Source: Thermosynechococcaceae cyanobacterium MS004
GTDB lineage: Bacteria; Cyanobacteriota; Cyanobacteriia; Thermosynechococcales; Thermosynechococcaceae
DNA: 64,000 bases
Direction: 5' to 3'
NCBI GenBank assembly: GCA_022402525.1
Contig: JAKRSB010000081.1
Coordinates: 1-64,000 of the forward strand
The notes beneath the pieces are model-generated. The model did no database searches. It was not told the origin of the DNA and saw nothing but the letters and a program-made list of their open reading frames with translations. Shown here piece by piece: positions 10,319-61,816 of the stretch. A program made the position numbers and the translations under genes. How positions within the stretch are numbered: the first letter of the stretch is position 1; every line of letters starts with the position of its first letter.

Positions 10319-13081
10319 ATGGCAATACTGAATCAAGATCCTGAGCAGCTTGCAAGAGACCAAATTGATCGGTTGCTTCGGGGGTCTGGCTGGATTGTCC
10401 AAGGTAAAAATGCCATTAATCTGAATGCGGGCCTTGGCATTGCGGTTCGAGAGTACCAGACAGATGTTGGCCCGGTGGACTATGCGCTCTTTGTTGATCG
10501 CAAGCCGATTGGGGTGATAGAGGCGAAGCGGGAAGAGAAGGGGCATCAGCTCACGACTGTGGAAGAACAGTCTGGGGAATATGCTGACAGTAAGCTGAAA
10601 TACCTCAATAATGAGCCGCTTCCCTACATCTATGAGAGCACAGGGGTCATAACCCGTTTTACCGATCGTCGAGATCCGAAGCCGCGATCGCGGTTGGTTT
10701 TTTCGTTCCATCGCCCTGAAACATTTCAAACTTGGGAAAAACAGAACAACTCCCTGCGGAGTCGTTTCTGCGATATTCCGGCTTTAGAGCCTGAGGGGCT
10801 TCGTACCTGTCAGATCTCAGCCATCACAAAGCTAGAGCAATCATTTCGGGAAAATCGGCCTAGAGCTTTGGTGCAGATGGCCACGGGGAGCGGTAAGACG
10901 TTTACGGCAATTACAGCGGTGTATCGGCTGCTGAAGTTTGCTGGGGCAAAGCGGGTTCTGTTTTTGGTGGATACTAAGAACCTGGGCGAGCAGGCGGAGC
11001 AGGAGTTTATGGCCTACACGCCCAGCGACGACAATCGCAAGTTTACGGAACTCTATAATGTGCAGCGGCTCCAGTCTCGCTATGTGGCGACGGATAGCCA
11101 GGTCTGCATTTCTACAATTCAGCGACTGTACTCGATCCTGAAGGGTGAGGATTTGGACGAACGGGCTGAGGAGGAGAACCCCAATGAGCGGGTACAGCCG
11201 AAGCAGCCGTTGCCGGTGGTCTATAGCGACAAACTACCGATTGAGTTTTTTGATTTCATCATTATTGATGAGTGTCACCGCTCAATTTATAACGTTTGGC
11301 AGCAGGTGCTGGACTATTTCGATGCGTTTTTGATTGGGTTGACGGCAACGCCAGACAAGCGAACTTTCGGCTTTTTTAATGAAAATGTGGTGAGCGAGTA
11401 TACCCATGAGGCGGCGATCGCCGATGGGGTGAATGTAGGTCACGAGATCTATGTGATTGAGACGGAGATTACGCAGCAGGGCAGTCAGATTAAAGCGAAG
11501 GAATATATTGGGAAGCGGGAAAAGCTATCTCGGCGGCAGCGATGGGAGCAGCTCGATACGGATTTGAGCTATACGGGGCAGCAGCTTGACCGGGATGTGG
11601 TGAACCCCAGTCAGATCCGCAATGTGGTGAAAGCCTTTAAGGAGAAACTGCCGGAGATTTTTCCGCATCGGGTGGAAGTACCAAAGACGCTGATTTTTGC
11701 GAAGTCTGATAGCCATGCCGATGACATCATTAAGATTGTGCGGGAGGAGTTTGGTGAGGGAAATGACTTCTGCAAAAAGATTACTTACAAGTCAGTGGAT
11801 AACCCGAAGTCGGTGCTGGCGCAGTTCCGCAATGACTTTAATCCACGCATTGCCGTGACGGTGGACATGATTGCGACGGGGACGGATGTGAAGCCCCTAG
11901 AATGCGTGTTCTTTATGCGGGATGTAAAGTCTAAAAATTATTTTGAGCAGATGAAGGGGCGGGGGACGCGCACGCTGGGCTATGACGATTTGAAGAAGGT
12001 GACGCCCTCAGCTTTTTCGGCAAAGACCCATTTTGTGGTTGTGGATGCGGTGGGGGTGACGAAGTCTTGTAAGACCGATAGCCGCCCACTGGAGCGTAAG
12101 AAGGGGGTGCCGCTGAAGGATTTGATGATGGGCATCATGATGGGGGCGCAGGATGCGGATGCGTTCGATTCTTTGGCGGGGCGGCTGAGTCGCTTGGATC
12201 GGCAGATGGAACCCAAGGAACGGGAAGGATTGAAGGCGCTGACAGGTGGGCTAGAACCGGGCGATATTTCGAGGGCGCTGCTGCGTGCCTATGACCCGGA
12301 TGCGATTCGAGAGCAGGCTCAGGCCGATTATGGGTTAGCGTCTGGGCAGGAGCCGACGGCTGACCAGAGCGAGGCGACGCAGCAATCTTTAATTCGGCAG
12401 GCGGCGGGTCTTTTTACGGGCGAGATTGTGGATTATCTGGAAAATGTGCGGAAGGTGCATGAGCAGGTGATCGATACGGTGAATTTGGATCGGGTGCTGA
12501 AGGCGGGTTGGGATGATCAGGCTCAAGATCAGGCGGCGGTACTGGTGGAAGATTTTGCCCAGTTTATTGCGCGCAATCAGGATGAGATTACGGCACTGAA
12601 GATTTTTTACAGTTTGCCCTATCAACGCCGGACGGTGACTTACGCAATGATGAAGGAGGTGTTGGATGCGCTTAAGGTTCAAAAACCGAATTTGGCTCCG
12701 CTCCATGTGTGGCAAGCCTATGCGCGGCTGGAGAATCTGCAAACCACGAACCCAATTAGCGAGTTGACGGCGCTGGTGGCGTTGATCCGACGGGTGACGG
12801 GGGTTGATGAGGTGCTGACGCCCTATGAGGCGACGGTGAATCGGAATTTTCAGGCTTGGGTATTTAAGAAGCAGGCGGGGGCTGCGCCTAAGTTTACGGA
12901 GGTACAGATGGGCTGGCTACGGATGATTAAGGATCATGTGATGAGTTCGTTTCATGTGGAGCGGGATGATTTGGACTATGCACCGTTTGATGGAGAAGGG
13001 GGTTTGGGGCGGATGCATGAGCTGTTTGGGGAGGAGATGGATAGCATTTTAGAAGAGATGAATGAAGCGTTGGCGGCTTAG
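10319..13081 (+). CDS. hsdR: Type I restriction enzyme, R (translocase/nuclease) subunit
   Basis: HsdR cuts unmodified DNA after ATP-driven translocation in complex with HsdM and HsdS. The N-terminal PD-(D/E)XK nuclease shows D54, then E68 and K70 in GVIEAK. The helicase core has ATGSGKT near residue 188, DECH at 317-320 and LTATPDKRTF near 340; later ATGTDV and QMKGRGTR are motifs V and VI. The C-terminal part resembles the EcoEI-type R domain. Its 920 residues are full length for this type. ATG 10319 follows GAGGAAGG about 14 bases upstream. The gene is strongly G-over-C on its coding strand (21 G to 7 C in 12901-12960), the opposite of hsdM. Confidence 0.93.
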   Translation: MAILNQDPEQLARDQIDRLLRGSGWIVQGKNAINLNAGLGIAVREYQTDVGPVDYALFVDRKPIGVIEAKREEKGHQLTTVEEQSGEYADSKLKYLNNEPLPYIYESTGVITRFTDRRDPKPRSRLVFSFHRPETFQTWEKQNNSLRSRFCDIPALEPEGLRTCQISAITKLEQSFRENRPRALVQMATGSGKTFTAITAVYRLLKFAGAKRVLFLVDTKNLGEQAEQEFMAYTPSDDNRKFTELYNVQRLQSRYVATDSQVCISTIQRLYSILKGEDLDERAEEENPNERVQPKQPLPVVYSDKLPIEFFDFIIIDECHRSIYNVWQQVLDYFDAFLIGLTATPDKRTFGFFNENVVSEYTHEAAIADGVNVGHEIYVIETEITQQGSQIKAKEYIGKREKLSRRQRWEQLDTDLSYTGQQLDRDVVNPSQIRNVVKAFKEKLPEIFPHRVEVPKTLIFAKSDSHADDIIKIVREEFGEGNDFCKKITYKSVDNPKSVLAQFRNDFNPRIAVTVDMIATGTDVKPLECVFFMRDVKSKNYFEQMKGRGTRTLGYDDLKKVTPSAFSAKTHFVVVDAVGVTKSCKTDSRPLERKKGVPLKDLMMGIMMGAQDADAFDSLAGRLSRLDRQMEPKEREGLKALTGGLEPGDISRALLRAYDPDAIREQAQADYGLASGQEPTADQSEATQQSLIRQAAGLFTGEIVDYLENVRKVHEQVIDTVNLDRVLKAGWDDQAQDQAAVLVEDFAQFIARNQDEITALKIFYSLPYQRRTVTYAMMKEVLDALKVQKPNLAPLHVWQAYARLENLQTTNPISELTALVALIRRVTGVDEVLTPYEATVNRNFQAWVFKKQAGAAPKFTEVQMGWLRMIKDHVMSSFHVERDDLDYAPFDGEGGLGRMHELFGEEMDSILEEMNEALAA

Positions 13082-13121
13082 GATTGATGAATGAGTTACG
13101 GGTTGGATGGCAGTATGAATT

Positions 13122-13231
13122 CCCCTCATCCCCTAACCCCTTCTCCCATGGGGAGAAGGAGGACAAGAAGAAGAAAAGCTTTAGGATTCTAGCTCCCCTC
13201 TCCCGCTGGGAGAGGGGCTGGGGGTGAGGGG
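13122..13231. repeat. MITE-like palindromic repeat
   Basis: The segment begins CCCCTCATCCCC and ends GGGGGTGAGGGG, with nested hairpins CCTTCTCCC/GGGAGAAGG (over an AT-containing tip) and CCCCTCTCCC/GGGAGAGGGG. Such C-rich/G-rich palindromes are widespread intergenic repeats in cyanobacteria. A related copy lies at 45989-46110. It separates hsdR from the following Uma2 gene. Confidence 0.7.
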
Positions 13232-13280
13232 CAAGGGTGGAGAGCTTAAATCCAAGCTCCTTAGCAAGTGAAGGTGTGCA

Positions 13281-13889
13281 ATGGTTCAGGCTATATCCCA
13301 GGGAATGAGTTTTCAGGAGTTTCTGGCGTGGAAGCCGGAGACGGGGCGTTACGAGTTGCACGATGGAGTGGTGGTTGAAATGCAGCCGACTGGGCCTCAT
13401 GAGCAGGTGGTGGGGTTGCTCAATCGCAAGCTGAATGTGTTGATTGATCGAGAGAATTTGGCTTATTTCATCCCAAATACGGCGCTGGTGCAGCCGTTGG
13501 ACTCTGCAAATGGCTATAAGCCGGATGTGTTGATGATTGATGCGGCTGCGTTGGGGCTAGAGCCGTTTTGGGAACGGGAATCTGTGATTACGCTGGCGAG
13601 TTCGGTAAAGCTGTTGGTGGAGGTGGTTTCGACGAATTGGCCGGATGATTATGCCCGTAAGTTTGAAGATTATGAGGCGATGGGGATTGCTGAGTATTGG
13701 ATTGTGGACTACAAGGGGCTGGGGGGACGACGCTATATTGGGTCGCCGAAGCAGTCTACCATTACGATTTGCAGTTTGGTGGATGGGGTGTATGAAACAC
13801 AGCTTTTTCGACGGGGGGATGTGCTGATTTCACCAGGTTTTCCAAGCTTGATGCTGACGGCAGATGAGGTTTTTAGTGCAGGGGATTAA
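13281..13889 (+). CDS. Uma2 family endonuclease-like protein
   Basis: This 202-residue Uma2 protein shows the family order GRYELHDGVVVEM (27-39), a GPHEQVVGLLNRKL helix, YKPDVLMID (80-88), VKLLVEVVSTNW (114-125) with the acidic nuclease residue, a DDYARKFEDYEAMGIAEYWI block (127-146) and a C-terminal SPGFPSLMLTADEVF. It lies inside the restriction locus between hsdR and hsdS, on the same strand and with the same G-rich coding strand as hsdR, so the two have probably travelled together. A link to restriction is only positional. Confidence 0.88.
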   Translation: MVQAISQGMSFQEFLAWKPETGRYELHDGVVVEMQPTGPHEQVVGLLNRKLNVLIDRENLAYFIPNTALVQPLDSANGYKPDVLMIDAAALGLEPFWERESVITLASSVKLLVEVVSTNWPDDYARKFEDYEAMGIAEYWIVDYKGLGGRRYIGSPKQSTITICSLVDGVYETQLFRRGDVLISPGFPSLMLTADEVFSAGD

Positions 13890-14020
13890 TAGAGTAAATG
13901 AGCATAGTAGACAGGAATTTATGAGCAGAAAAAGCTATTATAAGGAATAGGAAAATACCGTACTAACATTTAATTAGTCTGTTAAAATACACTAATAAAA
14001 CAAGATTTTGCCGAATCAGT

Positions 14021-15649
14021 ATGACTGATGATTTTATTGATAATACGACTGAAATATATCATGAAATTGAAACCTTGCCAGAAAATTGGCATCTTTGTTT
14101 TCTAGAAGAATTACTAGACAGATTGAGCAACGGAAGCTCTGCTACTCAATTTTCAGAATGTGCAGGCTTTCCTATCACTAGAATTGAGACTATATCAAAT
14201 GGTTTTATTGATACAAATAGAGTTAAATATGTTCAAGAAACATCTAAAGATTTTATTGATAAATATGGATTAAAATCAGGAGATATATTATTTAGCCATA
14301 TCAATAGTGATTCTCATCTTGGGAAGACTGCCTTATATAAAGGATTACCCAAAACACTAATTCATGGAATAAACTTACTTCTTCTAAGACCTAGTAGGTG
14401 GATTTCATCTCCCTATCTTAATTATTACCTCAAATTTCTTCGAGTGAAAGGTGTCTTCATAAAAGTTGCCCAAAGAGCTGTAAACCAATCTTCCATTAAT
14501 CAGAGGAAATTGAGTAAAATTCCTATTAGACTATGTCCAATAGATGAACAAAAACGCATTGTAGAAAAAATCGAAGAGCTTTTTTCCGATCTTGATAGCG
14601 GTATTGACAGTCTCAAAAATGCGCAGCAACAACTTAAAGTTTATCGTCATGCGGTTTTGAAGTGGGCATTTGAGGGAAAGCTGACGGCGCAATGGCGGGA
14701 AGAGCAAAAACGGCTAGGTAAACTTGAGTCTGTGGAGGTTTTGCTGGCGCAAATTAAGGCCGAGCGGGAACGTCGCTATCAAGGTAGATTCCAAAATTCT
14801 CTTTTGCCAGAGACAGAAACGTTATTTCAAATTCCTAAGGGCTGGTATTTAGTAACACTTGATCAGCTCAGTCTTCTTATTACAAGTGGATCGCGTGGCT
14901 GGGCAGAATATTATTCTGAGTCTGGAGATTATTTTATTCGAGCACAAAATATTAGTACTGATGAACTTGATTTAAGTAATGTAGCTTATGTGACGCTTCC
15001 ACAAGGTGTAGAAGGAAAACGCACTAACATAAAATTTGAAGATCTTCTTATCACAATTACTGGAGCTAATGTTACTAAGACTGCATTAGTTAAGATTGAA
15101 TTTGATAAAGCTGCTTATGTGAACCAGCATGTCGGATTGGTGAGATTGACAAAGTATGTAAATCGAAAATTCATTTATTACTGGATTATTAGTCCTCAAA
15201 ATGGTCGCTCCCAACTGACTGAAGCTGCCTATGGTGCTGGTAAACCTGGCTTAAATCTGACCAATCTTAAAGAAATTATTATTGCTTTACCCTCGCTCAG
15301 CGAACAAAATCAAATAGTCGATGAGATTGAATCTCGGCTTTCTATTTGCGATCGCCTCGAAGCAGAAATCGAAACCAACCTCAAAAAAGCCGAAGCATTG
15401 CGCCAAAGCATCCTCAAGCAAGCCTTTGAAGGCAAACTCGTCCCCCAAGACCCCAACGACGAACCCGCCTCAGTCTTGCTAGAGCGCATCCGAGCCGAAC
15501 GCGAAGCCCAGAAAAACGGCAAACCGACCCCTGCCTCAAAGCGACAATCGCGGAAAAAGAAAAACCTACTGGAGCTTTCAGGCCAAATCCAACTCGCCGA
15601 TGACTACGACTACAAAGCACTGAGAGGCGATCGCCATGTTGAGGATTGA
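14021..15649 (+). CDS. hsdS: Type I restriction-modification specificity subunit
   Basis: HsdS recognises a split DNA target and holds the HsdM/HsdR complex. The 542 residues show two target-recognition domains (about 15-170 and 270-440), each followed by a helical spacer: the first beginning CPIDEQKRIVEKIEELFSDL (about 179-198) and ending WAFEGKL, the second beginning SLSEQNQIVDEIESRL and ending QAFEGKLVP. A basic C-terminal tail carries KKKNLLELSGQIQLADDYDY. The first recognition domain is AT-rich, as is common. The central spacer is G-rich (23 G to 9 C in 14641-14700) and the last spacer C-rich (24 C to 11 G in 15421-15480), so the gene looks like a recombinant. The 131 bp upstream are AT-rich and probably carry its promoter. 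Confidence 0.92.
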   Translation: MTDDFIDNTTEIYHEIETLPENWHLCFLEELLDRLSNGSSATQFSECAGFPITRIETISNGFIDTNRVKYVQETSKDFIDKYGLKSGDILFSHINSDSHLGKTALYKGLPKTLIHGINLLLLRPSRWISSPYLNYYLKFLRVKGVFIKVAQRAVNQSSINQRKLSKIPIRLCPIDEQKRIVEKIEELFSDLDSGIDSLKNAQQQLKVYRHAVLKWAFEGKLTAQWREEQKRLGKLESVEVLLAQIKAERERRYQGRFQNSLLPETETLFQIPKGWYLVTLDQLSLLITSGSRGWAEYYSESGDYFIRAQNISTDELDLSNVAYVTLPQGVEGKRTNIKFEDLLITITGANVTKTALVKIEFDKAAYVNQHVGLVRLTKYVNRKFIYYWIISPQNGRSQLTEAAYGAGKPGLNLTNLKEIIIALPSLSEQNQIVDEIESRLSICDRLEAEIETNLKKAEALRQSILKQAFEGKLVPQDPNDEPASVLLERIRAEREAQKNGKPTPASKRQSRKKKNLLELSGQIQLADDYDYKALRGDRHVED

Positions 15650-15700
15650 TGCCTCCACATGGATTAACGTGGTCTTCACCCCAGCCTTACCCCAAAAGCC

Positions 15701-15737
15701 AAACCTGTCGATCAAATCATCATCTATCGACAGGTTT
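15701..15737. repeat. Perfect 12-bp inverted repeat between hsdS and fic
   Basis: AAACCTGTCGAT (15701-15712) and ATCGACAGGTTT (15726-15737) are exact complements around a 13-base loop. There is no T run, so it does not look like a simple terminator. It shares the TGTCGAT core with the sites at 15745 and 15773-15805 and may be part of an operator array. Confidence 0.7.
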
Positions 15738-15772
15738 CGGGCATATGTCGATAGCGTAAACATGTTTATAAA

Positions 15773-15805
15773 ATATGTCGATTTTTTTGAAAAAAATCGA
15801 CATAT
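15773..15805. repeat. Perfect 16-bp palindrome between hsdS and fic
   Basis: ATATGTCGATTTTTTT (15773-15788) and its exact complement (15790-15805) flank a single G. The convergent ends of hsdS and fic lie on either side. The T/A tracts sit at the tip rather than after the stem, so cruciform or protein-binding roles are as plausible as bidirectional termination. Its outer part repeats the TGTCGAT motif seen upstream. Confidence 0.75.
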
Positions 15806-15813
15806 ACTAAAAC

Positions 15814-16893
15814 TCATCTGATTAGGAGATTGTAGAACGGGACGTTTATAAAATATCGCTCACGACCTTTTTTATAGCTTTGGAGCACTCCAACCCTCTC
15901 TAGCTCCTGTAAATACATTGAAGCGGTCTGTCGTTTGGCGATGTTGGCCTCTTCTAAAAACCGGATTTTACAGTAAGGCTGTCGGAACAGAACCTCAACC
16001 AATTCTTTGCTGTAGACCTTGGGTAAGTCTTGTTTGACCGACTCAGTGACGGCCTCCATAAGTTTCTTGATGTCCAAAATCTTGTTACGGGTTAGTAGTG
16101 CCGTTTCTTGAATGGCTTGCAGCATATAGAGAATCCAGGGCTCCCAGCTTTCTTTCTCTGTAATGTGTCGTAGCCCTTTGTAATAGTCGTTTTTGTGCTG
16201 AATGATATAGCTGCTCAGATAAAGTACCGGAAATTCCAGTAATTTTTGCTCTACCAGATAAAGCATGTTTAGAATGCGCCCTGTCCTACCATTCCCGTCC
16301 GTAAAGGGGTGTATGGCCTCGAACTGATAATGAATCACTGCCATTTTGACGAGAGGATCTAAATCGTCTGAGTCATCATAGATGAAGTTTTCAAGATTTT
16401 CTAATTTATCCCGAAGCAATGCCTCTCCTTCTGGTGGTGTATAAATAACTTCACCTTCGCCATCTACAATTTTGGTTCCAGGGATCTTACGCACTCCTGA
16501 AATGCTGGGCTTAATATTCCGGGCAATGTCTTCAAACAATCGTGTAGCAAGAGGTTGTCCTAACATTAGACTTTGTACCCCAAACCATAGTGCTGTGTTG
16601 TAGTGCAAGACTTCTTTCGTCTGAGGATCGGTGTGATGATCATCATCTGCTAGTGCGCGGTACAGTTCATCATTCGTGGTAACAATATTTTCAATTTCTG
16701 ATGATAGCTTGGCCTCCTGAAGTGCCAAAGTACTCAATAGCACGGTCTGATTGGGAATTAAGTCCCCCACTCCTTTTAATTCGGCAAGTGCTCGGTTAGC
16801 TGCGATCGCCCGTTTGAGAACTGCTTTGGTTTCCAAGTCTGAGGAAGGGGGGAGCAAGGGAAGGTCGTTATAGGGTTGATTTTTATCAAACAT
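15814..16893 (-). CDS. Fic family protein (putative AMP-transferase)
   Basis: Fic proteins modify target proteins, usually by adding AMP. The active-site loop HPFTDGNGRTGR is intact at 195-206. An N-terminal inhibitory helix motif SSEIEN (64-69, the S/T-x-x-x-E-N pattern) marks an auto-inhibited, class II type protein of the Fic/DUF4172-like N-terminal layout. The C-terminal 60 residues resemble a winged helix. At 359 residues it is full length. It is the only gene on the minus strand within the restriction locus, and is flanked on one side by the end of hsdS and on the other by a second copy of the hsdS tail. Phage-defence or stress roles are known for some Fic proteins; its role here is open. 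Confidence 0.9.
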   Translation of the reverse strand: MFDKNQPYNDLPLLPPSSDLETKAVLKRAIAANRALAELKGVGDLIPNQTVLLSTLALQEAKLSSEIENIVTTNDELYRALADDDHHTDPQTKEVLHYNTALWFGVQSLMLGQPLATRLFEDIARNIKPSISGVRKIPGTKIVDGEGEVIYTPPEGEALLRDKLENLENFIYDDSDDLDPLVKMAVIHYQFEAIHPFTDGNGRTGRILNMLYLVEQKLLEFPVLYLSSYIIQHKNDYYKGLRHITEKESWEPWILYMLQAIQETALLTRNKILDIKKLMEAVTESVKQDLPKVYSKELVEVLFRQPYCKIRFLEEANIAKRQTASMYLQELERVGVLQSYKKGRERYFINVPFYNLLIR

Positions 16894-16972
16894 GATGCTT
16901 GTAACTTATCGGCATGAATTTTGAGTTGCGTTAATTGATAAAACAGACTAATCCTCAAAGAAATAATTCTGT

Positions 16973-17056
16973 AAAAAGAAGAACCTCCTACACCTCTCAG
17001 GCTCAATCCAATTCACCGATGATTACGACTTAAAAGCCCTGCGTTCAAGCCATTGA
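16973..17056 (+). pseudogene. Fragment of a second hsdS (C-terminal tail)
   Basis: The plus strand encodes KKKNLLHLSG, then SIQFTDDYDLKALRSSH and TGA, closely matching the tail of the intact HsdS (KKKNLLELSG, QIQLADDYDYKALRGD). The frame closes at a TAA (16964-16966) just upstream, so only the last 27 codons remain. DNA similarity to 15557-15650 is clear, with several silent differences, so the copy is not brand new. It shows that the locus once held another hsdS or that the hsdS end was duplicated around fic. Confidence 0.75.
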
Positions 17057-17106
17057 TTGAGCGAAATTATGTCAGCATTAAATTGCGACTGTTTTGTTAT
17101 TCTCCA

Positions 17107-17340
17107 ATGAACTTCAACATCTGTCTTGAAGAGAGCCTCATTGAAAAGCTTGATTACCTATCAAAACAACAAGGCAAAACCCGCAACACCATTATCCGTG
17201 AAGCCCTTGAAGCTTGGACTACTCAATCCTCGCCTACCGCTTGGCCTGATATTGTATTGAACTATAGCGGAACTGGGGACAGCATCATCTTTGAAAGCAC
17301 TCGTAGCGAATTGACCCCGCCCAAAGACGTAAACCTTTAA
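17107..17340 (+). CDS. CopG/ribbon-helix-helix protein, antitoxin-like
   Basis: This 77-residue protein begins with a ribbon strand (MNFNICLEESL) and two helices, LIEKLDYLSKQQGKTRNTII and REALEAWT, the layout of ribbon-helix-helix DNA-binding proteins such as CopG-type antitoxins. ATG 17107 is chosen because the family starts at this strand; ATG-less extension to 17053 is in frame but not supported. Such genes normally pair with a toxin gene just downstream, but the next gene is hsdM, 40 bp away. It could be an orphan antitoxin or a local regulator of the restriction genes. Confidence 0.65.
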   Translation: MNFNICLEESLIEKLDYLSKQQGKTRNTIIREALEAWTTQSSPTAWPDIVLNYSGTGDSIIFESTRSELTPPKDVNL

Positions 17341-17380
17341 CCATCGAAAATTGGCGACAACCGTCAAAGTAACACCCCCC

Positions 17381-18862
17381 ATGAGCAACACCGCCAGCAT
17401 CATCTCCAAAGTCTGGAACTTCTGTAACGTCCTCCGCGACGACGGCGTTGGCTACGGCGACTACCTAGAACAGCTCACCTACCTGCTGTTCCTCAAAATG
17501 GCCCACGAATATAGCCAGCCCCCCTACAAACGCGATACCGGAGTCCCTGCCGACTGTAACTGGGAAAGCCTCAGCACCAAACGCGGCGACGAACTCGAAA
17601 AACACTACATCTACACCCTGCGTACCCTTGGCCAGCAAAAAGGAATGTTGGGGCAAATCTTCACCAAATCCCAAAACAAAATCCAAAACCCAGCCCTGCT
17701 GCTCAAAATCATCGACATGATTGACCAAGAAAGCTGGGTACGCATGGGAGCCGACGTCAAAGGCGACATCTACGAAGGGCTATTAGAGAAAAACGCCGAA
17801 GATACCAAAAGCGGCGCAGGCCAATACTTCACCCCCCGCGCCCTCATCTGGGCAATGGTCGAATGCATCCGCCCCCAACCCCTCAAAACCATCGCCGACC
17901 CCGCCTGCGGCACCGGAGGCTTCTTCCTCGCCGCCTACGACTTTCTCGTTAAAAATCACCAGCTCGACCGAGACGACAAAGAATACCTCAAATTCTTCAC
18001 CTTCCGAGGCAACGAAATTGTCGCCAACACCCGCCGCCTCGCCCTCATGAATATGTTTTTGCACAACATCGGCGACATCACCAGCGAAAGCATGATTTCC
18101 GCCCAAGATGCCCTTCTCGCCGACACCGGAGAACGCTTCGACTACGTGTTAGCCAACCCGCCCTTCGGTAAAAAAAGCAGCATCAACATCACCAACGAAG
18201 AAGGCGAACAAGAAGAACAAGACCTAGCCTACAACCGCCAAGACTTCTGGGCCACCACCTCCAACAAACAGCTCAACTTTGTTCAGCACATCCGCACCAT
18301 CCTCAAAACCACAGGCCAAGCGGCGATCGTCCTGCCCGATAACGTCCTATTTGAAGGGGGTGCAGGCGAAACCGTCCGTAAAAAGCTGCTCCAAAATACA
18401 GACCTGCACACCATCCTCCGTCTCCCTACAGGCGTATTTTATAAACAAGGCGTCAAAGCCAACGTCCTCTTTTTCGACAATCAACCCGCCGCCAAAGACC
18501 CCTGGACTAAAGAAGTCTGGTACTACGATTTCCGTACCAACATCCACTTCACCCTCAAGAAAAATCCTCTGAAAAAAGCAGATCTCCAAGACTTTATCGA
18601 TTGCTATAACCCACAGAATCGCCGCGATCGCCAAGAAACCTGGTCAGAAGCAAACCCAGAAGGCCGCTGGCGCAAGTTTTCCTACGAAGAGCTAGCTGCT
18701 AGGGATAAGACCAGCCTTGACATTTTCTGGCTGCGAGACAAAAGTCTTACAGATCTAGATAGCCTGTCTGACCCAGACATTTTGGCTCAAGAAATCGTCG
18801 AAAACCTAGAGGCAGGACTGGAGAGCTTTCGGGCGATCGCAGGGGCCCTCAACATCCTCTAG
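17381..18862 (+). CDS. hsdM: Type I restriction-modification methyltransferase subunit
   Basis: HsdM methylates adenine in the target recognised by HsdS. The N-terminal helical domain (ISKVWNFCNVLRDDGVGYGDYL) is followed by the SAM-dependent N6-adenine methylase with GQYFTPRALI, the SAM motif PACGTGGFFLAA near 173 and the catalytic NPPF near 258. ATG 17381 gives 493 residues and is preferred to TTG 17351, although neither has a clear ribosome-binding site. The coding strand is C-rich (28 C to 13 G in 17881-17940), opposite to hsdR. It is the last gene of the locus, an unusual order. Confidence 0.93.
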   Translation: MSNTASIISKVWNFCNVLRDDGVGYGDYLEQLTYLLFLKMAHEYSQPPYKRDTGVPADCNWESLSTKRGDELEKHYIYTLRTLGQQKGMLGQIFTKSQNKIQNPALLLKIIDMIDQESWVRMGADVKGDIYEGLLEKNAEDTKSGAGQYFTPRALIWAMVECIRPQPLKTIADPACGTGGFFLAAYDFLVKNHQLDRDDKEYLKFFTFRGNEIVANTRRLALMNMFLHNIGDITSESMISAQDALLADTGERFDYVLANPPFGKKSSINITNEEGEQEEQDLAYNRQDFWATTSNKQLNFVQHIRTILKTTGQAAIVLPDNVLFEGGAGETVRKKLLQNTDLHTILRLPTGVFYKQGVKANVLFFDNQPAAKDPWTKEVWYYDFRTNIHFTLKKNPLKKADLQDFIDCYNPQNRRDRQETWSEANPEGRWRKFSYEELAARDKTSLDIFWLRDKSLTDLDSLSDPDILAQEIVENLEAGLESFRAIAGALNIL

Positions 18863-18937
18863 TCGATTCTTTGATAAGCGCCCATCCCAGGATTGGATCT
18901 GCCCAACTCGATTGATGGGAGTATTTCTGGCGTTAGC

Positions 18938-18977
18938 AACCGTTTAGACGGGCGTTCGATGAGGGGCGGTTGTTTTT
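18938..18977 (+). terminator. Probable terminator after hsdM
   Basis: CAACCG and CGGTTG form a 6-bp stem with a long inner loop, followed by TTTTTT. The right half (from 18958) is shared with a repeat at 46087-46110 (23 of 24 bases), so it may be a repeat-derived terminator. Confidence 0.5.
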
Positions 18978-18992
18978 TGTCCAACTCATATT

Positions 18993-19026
18993 AAAAAAGG
19001 CTCTCGGACTGACGGATCCAAGAGCC
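18993..19026 (-). terminator. Rho-independent terminator of rpsD
   Basis: On the minus strand GGCTCTTGGA pairs with TCCGAGAGCC (one mismatch) around a short loop and is followed by TTTTTT. It lies 45 bp after the rpsD stop codon. Confidence 0.85.
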
Positions 19027-24828: not shown

Positions 24829-24862
24829 AAAAAGCGCTTCCCTTAAGGGAAGCGCTTTTTTT
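24829..24862. terminator. Bidirectional rho-independent terminator
   Basis: AAAAAGCGCTTCCC and GGGAAGCGCTTTTT form a near-perfect palindrome around TTAA, with T runs in both directions. It serves the zinc-ribbon gene on the plus strand and clpC on the minus strand. Confidence 0.93.
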
Positions 24863-61752: not shown

Positions 61753-61782
61753 TTCCCTTCAATAAAATTCCCTTCAATAAAA
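61753..61782. repeat. Perfect 15-bp tandem pair beside a terminator
   Basis: TTCCCTTCAATAAAA occurs twice in a row. It abuts the terminator at 61783, in the spacer between the small protein gene and the sigma factor gene. Confidence 0.95.
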
Positions 61783-61816
61783 ATAGGGTGTGACGCAAGG
61801 TCACACCCTATTTTTT
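61783..61816. terminator. Strong bidirectional terminator of the sigma factor gene
   Basis: ATAGGGTGTGAC and GTCACACCCTAT form a perfect 12-bp stem with loop GCAAG and T runs on both sides. It lies 24 bp after the sigma gene stop (minus strand) and also serves the plus-strand small gene. Confidence 0.95.

Follow-up and report, generated by a model that had tools for sequence, protein, structure and literature searches.

The hsdS-fic intergenic region and its repeat array

The window, a 64,000-nt stretch of contig JAKRSB010000081.1 from Thermosynechococcaceae cyanobacterium MS004, carries hsdR (10319 to 13081), hsdS (14021 to 15649) and hsdM (17351 to 18862), all on the plus strand, and a fic gene (15814 to 16893, minus strand) that converges with hsdS. 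By local alignment, 16953 to 17041 (plus strand, 89 bp) matches 15534-15622 and is a diverged relic of the 3' end of a second hsdS, and fic and the repeat array described below are bracketed by these two hsdS ends.

The fic product (359 aa) contains Fic_N and Fic domains followed by a SoFic-like_C winged helix, as indicated by Pfam, PADLOC and structure comparison. It matched the PADLOC SoFic profile PDLC03963 with an E-value of 1e-117, and the sequences of the solved SoFic structures at about 1e-112. The active-site motif HPFTDGNGR is found at residues 195-203, and the inhibitory motif (S/T)xxxE(G/N) is present as SSEIEN at residues 64-69; S64, E68, H195 and R203 are among the invariant columns of the Fic alignment. 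The AlphaFold model (mean pLDDT 94.6) gave VIA Z scores of 48.7 to 3zcn, 35.8 to 7cb8 and 25.0 to 8cil, and has a C-terminal winged helix made of helices 296-302, 310-315 and 321-333, plus a wing of two strands. Helix 321-333 is the predicted recognition helix, and the codons of residues 320-325 (KRQTAS), where it starts, lie at 15919 to 15936 on the minus strand. Judged by these features, the gene is of Sofic type and encodes a putative anti-phage AMPylator.

The hsdS and fic stop codons enclose a 103-bp array (15703 to 15805) composed of three inverted pairs of the 10-bp half-site AYRTGTCGAT, with the structure 33+7+23+7+33. Pair 1 (15703 to 15735) consists of ACCTGTCGAT (15703-15712) and its inverse (15726-15735) around a 13-bp spacer and is followed by a 7-bp linker (15736 to 15742). 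Pair 2 (15743 to 15765), with a spacer of 3 bp, combines ATATGTCGAT (15743-15752) with a degenerate partner, ACATGTTTAC on the minus strand (15756-15765), and a second 7-bp linker (15766 to 15772) leads to pair 3 (15773 to 15805), in which ATATGTCGAT (15773-15782) and its inverse (15796-15805) are again separated by 13 bp and form a 33-bp palindrome around one central G. The first-pass annotation had described five TGTCGAT motifs in 105 bp. All five are there, starting at 15706 (+), 15726 (-), 15746 (+), 15776 (+) and 15796 (-), with start-to-start steps of 20, 20, 30 and 20 bp; three of the starts given earlier (15705, 15745 and 15775) were one base low, and the degenerate sixth half-site, the 13-3-13 architecture and the motif spacings had been overlooked. 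The 12-bp inverted repeat (15701-15712/15726-15737, 13-nt loop) and the 16-bp palindrome arms (15773-15788/15790-15805, flanking one G) were correctly described. So was the 13-bp duplication reaching into the end of fic, GTTTATAAAATAT being found at 15764-15776 and again at 15844-15856; since the second copy falls within the fic coding region, where it specifies part of a YFIN stretch, this duplication is probably a coincidence.

The array departs clearly from random expectation. TGTCGAT occurs 12 times in the window against 5.08 expected, a count attained in none of 100 shuffles, and whole-window shuffles (n=200) placed at most two copies within 105 bp, where the array has five. A layout score that assumes no motif reached 52, the maximum among 5000 dinucleotide shuffles of the intergenic region being 41.

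A search of the host genome for the motif, as the first-pass annotation had proposed, returned the array as the single such site found. Exact N13 pairs are confined to the two in the array, N3 pairs with up to three mismatches to its central pair, and BLAST detected no additional match to the region in this genome. The region gave no BLAST match among plasmids and only matches at E 0.2 among phages. No locus with three TGTCGAT in 120 bp was found among the cyanobacterial hsdM relatives (10 of 145 genomes beyond the host's own). A DNA search of the 145 relatives returned four weak matches beyond the host genome (E 9e-4 to 7e-3), of which one was inspected and taken for chance.

Elsewhere in the window, long perfect palindromes with arms of 16-18 bp occur at 387-425, 24829-24860 and 61779-61815, and are possibly bidirectional terminators. 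An Rfam search of 13000-19000 gave sub-threshold matches only, all of them outside the array at 13115-13243; this stretch, between hsdR and a Uma2 gene, shows several weak microRNA-type matches on both strands and is probably an inverted or dispersed repeat.

Occurrence of the array beside Sofic-type fic genes

Clusters of at least three TGTCGAT within 120 bp were found beside fic in distant bacteria. The spacings between motifs are mostly multiples of 10 and follow an orientation rule, in which 10 bp occurs only as +-, 20 and 50 bp are inverted, and 30 and 40 bp are in the same orientation. A scan for the Fic protein yielded 80 genome-contig loci. To the loci of the rigid-layout test described below, the 128-locus set adds 39 genome loci (three of 42 being duplicates) together with six plasmid loci. 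L112 (partial fic) was left out of both the rigid-layout and the 128-locus tests, and L115 (interrupted fic) and the duplicates L168, L197 and L198 (of L073, L042 and L041) were left out of the latter.

The rigid-layout test, which assumes no motif, was positive in 47 of 84 loci compared with 3 of 166 control segments. When 1-bp slips were allowed, 76 of the 128 Sofic-type fic loci, from many phyla, reached z>=4, while none of 254 control segments from elsewhere in the same loci did so (maximum z 3.6); the window array scored z 16.1. It has the alternating N13 and N3 inverted pairs and 7-bp linkers that are found beside Sofic-type fic genes. Array frequency follows identity to the window Fic: 17/17 loci at 56% or more, 40/46 at 50-56%, 11/15 at 48-50% and 8/50 below 48%. 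Six loci at 50-56% were misses; two of these, L053 and L068, keep two TGTCGAT in the upstream flank, as does L110. The short internal direct repeats could suggest a chance or functionless duplication of a palindromic stretch. This explanation is refuted by the layout score (attained in 0/5000 shuffles), the recurrence in distant phyla and the 0/254 controls.

Among the 77 positive flank segments, 50 lie upstream and 27 downstream of fic, L135 having both. Upstream arrays typically begin 100-180 bp ahead of the fic start codon. Where the array lies downstream, fic frequently overlaps a same-strand gene or follows it closely, this gene being hsdS in L034; according to Pfam, the array stands ahead of hsdR in L033, L034 and L035 and ahead of hsdS in L043. 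These positions bear on a reading in which hairpins of the two long palindromes act as bidirectional terminators for the hsdS and fic transcripts, which converge here. Stop codons do converge on the array from both sides, each strand folds much more stably than shuffled sequence (z -5.0 and -6.4), and the 33-bp palindrome leads, in the fic direction, into a short T-rich stretch. However, no intrinsic terminator, with a GC-containing stem and a T run behind it, was called in 15650-15816, and termination leaves unexplained the common 10-bp core, the fixed 13-3-13 spacing and the central pair, as well as the upstream location of the same architecture in most positive segments. Termination is thus a rather unlikely main role, and a secondary one would be compatible with a Fic operator.

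Pattern searches led back to fic as well. Allowing up to one mismatch, the junction ATCGACAYRT-N7-AYRTGTCGAT was found in 10 of 321 gammaproteobacterial genomes, 7 of which are fic-positive; exact junctions occurred in four genomes, all four fic-positive, against a background of 36/321 with a Sofic-type fic. A reversed control pattern had no match in the 321 genomes. In the host's own phylum (386 genomes), the exact N13 pattern was present in 10, and, besides the host itself, the pattern alone led to L135, where fic is present. Among 5426 E. coli genomes, 45 matched the fic query, and the two loci inspected (L345 and L346) both have upstream arrays, with z 10.9 and 8.4. In L346 (2922-3997, E. 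coli S10), a frameshifted Sofic-type fic stands beside a second Fic-family gene. The cyanobacterial relative G111 (74% identity) has a fic interrupted by about 1.2 kb and a weak array behind it (z 2.2).

A resolvase res-like site, a tyrosine-recombinase core or a transposon end might also be considered. Serine-resolvase res sites consist of inverted half-sites in three sub-sites with differing spacers, a layout that the window array resembles, and a serine recombinase follows the plasmid fic in L154 and L158. Unlike res sites, the window array has no linked recombinase: relatives of those serine recombinases were found only in the plasmid loci L154, L155, L156 and L158, and neither in the window nor in the 80 genome-contig loci. 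The region also lacks a further copy in its own genome, so that recombination, one of two functions first proposed for the repeats, is very improbable, whereas the other, a regulator site, gained support from conservation beside Sofic-type fic and from the covariation described below.

Several further observations were made at these loci. The plasmid-borne Sofic-type fic genes (rhizobial and related) adjoin repABC in five of six cases (L154, L155, L157, L158 and L159). A single perfect N3 site (L160:2865-2887, G487:C123) lies by ABC-transporter-like genes in the Armatimonadetes genome that also contains L036 and is a possible second Fic target. Genes near an orphan array in L161 resemble, by sequence, a HigBA-type toxin-antitoxin pair. 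When 62 loci lacking a strong array were searched more broadly, there were hints of other repeats, of TGTATA types, about 41-42 bp apart, and TGTATA-type words were seen upstream of fic in loci below about 48% identity (e.g. L079, L108 and L078). These suggest a second array geometry in a sister clade of fic.

Covariation of the half-sites with the predicted Fic recognition helix

The half-sites differ between lineages and include the types TCGAT, TCGAA, TCGCT, TCCAT, TCTAT, TTCAT, GGTAA and CACTR; 16 proteins with internal stops or of unsuitable length were skipped when these types were first compared. For covariation with the protein, 51 loci were retained, namely the 66 with z>=5.5 less two with damaged C-termini and 13 at more than 85% identity to another locus, and the half-sites were drawn from our own motif search. 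The two damaged loci, L203 and L178 (C-terminus disrupted or truncated), were dropped from both the covariation and the tree pairs.

Among 353 six-residue windows of Fic, residues 320-325 (KRQTAS) ranked first against motif bases 6-10. Their partial Mantel r, corrected for the distance over residues 1-260, was 0.71 (mean of all windows 0.03, sd 0.15; 0/2000 permutations, which ignore tree structure beyond the distance correction). The best base-residue partners were base 8 with Q322, base 9 with T323 and base 10 with K320, while bases 4 to 7 partner best with other Fic residues, some of them distant from the helix. Comparisons of independent pairs on the tree of residues 1-260, all small in number, pointed the same way: K320 with T10 gave 10 for, 1 against and 1 tie (n=12), Q322 with G8 gave 8, 1 and 1 (n=10), K322 with C8 or T8 gave 6, 0 and 2, and T323 with A9 gave 7, 1 and 1 (n=9). 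Residues 320-323 form the start of the recognition helix predicted by the model, and the window half-site TCGAT fits its helix KRQT under the code so derived. Since the best-tracking window of the whole protein coincides with this predicted helix start, Fic itself can be proposed as the reader of the array, for which the covariation is strong, indirect evidence. The earlier suspicion that the C-terminal domain of Fic is the binder is strongly supported by conservation and covariation together.

A different binder, either the CopG-like protein suggested alongside Fic or a widespread host regulator, would leave the Fic loci as mere carriers of the array. Such a protein could account for phage contigs that carry the element without fic and for the one orphan array, of TCCAT type (L161:2719-2811, G488:C35), which has no fic in 5.5 kb. 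Against it, motif changes follow residues 320-325 above any other Fic window, and no other site of this kind was found in the array's own genome. A copG gene was found only at the window's own locus among the 14 fic loci listed with an hsd match; the architecture recurs in many contexts in which fic is the common gene, and a CopG-like binder is superfluous. We consider a binder other than Fic unlikely.

A candidate Fic operator and its viral counterparts

Taken together, these features indicate that the array is very probably a docking array or operator for the adjacent fic product, a Sofic-type anti-phage AMPylator (probability about 0.86). It is read as a binding site for the Fic winged helix because the architecture flanks Sofic-type fic genes and its inner bases change with the recognition helix. 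Fic is dimeric in solved relatives, and the C-terminal winged helix of such a dimer would grip each inverted pair, several dimers being phased about every 10 bp on one DNA face. Three observations sit less easily with a Fic operator: the sixth half-site is degenerate, few loci below 48% identity fit, and the array sometimes occurs without fic (L161 and phages).

Occupancy of the array may repress transcription in cis, for which we see about even odds, and the toxic enzyme would then be kept low where the array precedes fic. This typical upstream position suits autorepression of the kind known from CccR, a Fic protein of Yersinia pseudotuberculosis whose HTH recognises a 10-bp inverted repeat in the promoter of its own gene (PMC9755527). 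Alternatively, arrays between fic and hsdR or hsdS, as in the downstream group, may gate restriction genes. In the window, autoregulation is not evident because the downstream flank of fic scores and its promoter does not; fic has the opposite orientation here and the array comes after both genes, so that neither arrangement applies, and control in cis could come about only through looping, through a roadblock where hsdS and fic converge, or through a private reserve that keeps Fic on DNA.

The candidate Sofic array is very probably a new variant of Fic-HTH operators. CccR likewise joins a Fic enzyme to a C-terminal HTH and has 10-bp inverted half-sites by its own gene, and dimer binding has been demonstrated for it (PMC9755527). 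As described there, the CccR site is one pair of AGATAATCAT with a spacer of 26 in the cccR promoter, whereas the window has three pairs of another sequence, spaced 13-3-13 and downstream of fic. SoFic (3eqx/3zcn) and E. coli Sofic (9vjc, PMC12249575) belong to the same protein family as the window Fic, and the KRQTAS segment is also present in SoFic. The published account of E. coli Sofic, unlike ours, treats the C-terminal domain as a toxicity regulator, proposes a small antitoxin, AS1, and, as far as covered here, describes no DNA site; it terms the regulation of Sofic toxicity elusive (PMC12249575). CbFic2 of Coxiella burnetii is a class II Fic with a wHTH whose AMPylation is affected by DNA binding; it was studied as a predicted secreted effector, has Z 25.0 to the window model, and differs in that, as far as covered here, no specific site is known for it (PMC10628234). 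According to the same source, DNA binding by SoFic had not been demonstrated as of 2023. The literature covered, mostly abstracts with partial inclusion of preprints and subscription journals, contained no published Sofic or SoFic operator, and no publication was found for PDB entries 9tb0, 9tc4, 9tch and 9tcl.

Viral contigs also carry the exact junction, with at least 120 such stretches, mostly without fic; none was found there with a linker of 5 or 9. In 79 non-identical contexts drawn from these stretches (158 sides), an inverted partner with at least 8/10 matches was found at spacer 3 in 31 cases and at spacer 13 in 20, while all other spacers from 0 to 40 together gave 9. A Sofic-type fic was seen in 2 of 80 viral loci among the matches listed and in 2 of 37 records of at least 30 kb. 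Four phage records searched whole contained no convincing SoFic_C relative (best E 0.08). The viral sites are not all intergenic, 32 of 80 among the matches listed lying inside an ORF of at least 90 aa. The TCGAA version was found in 17 viral contigs, with partners mostly at spacers 3 and 13; TCCAT (4 contigs) and GGTAA (2) may be there by chance. Within the sets L223-L302 and L348-L370, one podovirus-like group has several elements between capsid and tail genes, and another group has the element inside small ORFs. No relative of the gene downstream of the element in phage L232 was found in named phages.

Phages, many of them tailed, thus seem to carry sites of Sofic type, including a second specificity (TCGAA). 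We infer that host Sofic could bind them, and a phage protein of the same specificity is a possible alternative binder. More tentatively, phage-borne Sofic operators might act as an infection sensor or as a decoy, in that the site copies on replicating phage DNA would pull Sofic off its array, or hold it on DNA, so that the toxin is freed or induced, or is disarmed.

The array offers a concrete candidate DNA ligand for Sofic, with a recognition code in which residues 320, 322 and 323 pair with bases 10, 8 and 9, and a testable tie of Sofic to phages as well as restriction operons. Should docking on DNA control Fic enzymes, the phage copies of the site provide a testable model for sensing or evasion. 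Were the sensor proposal true, the docking array would serve as the sensing component of an abortive-infection system that counts the copies of a DNA site.
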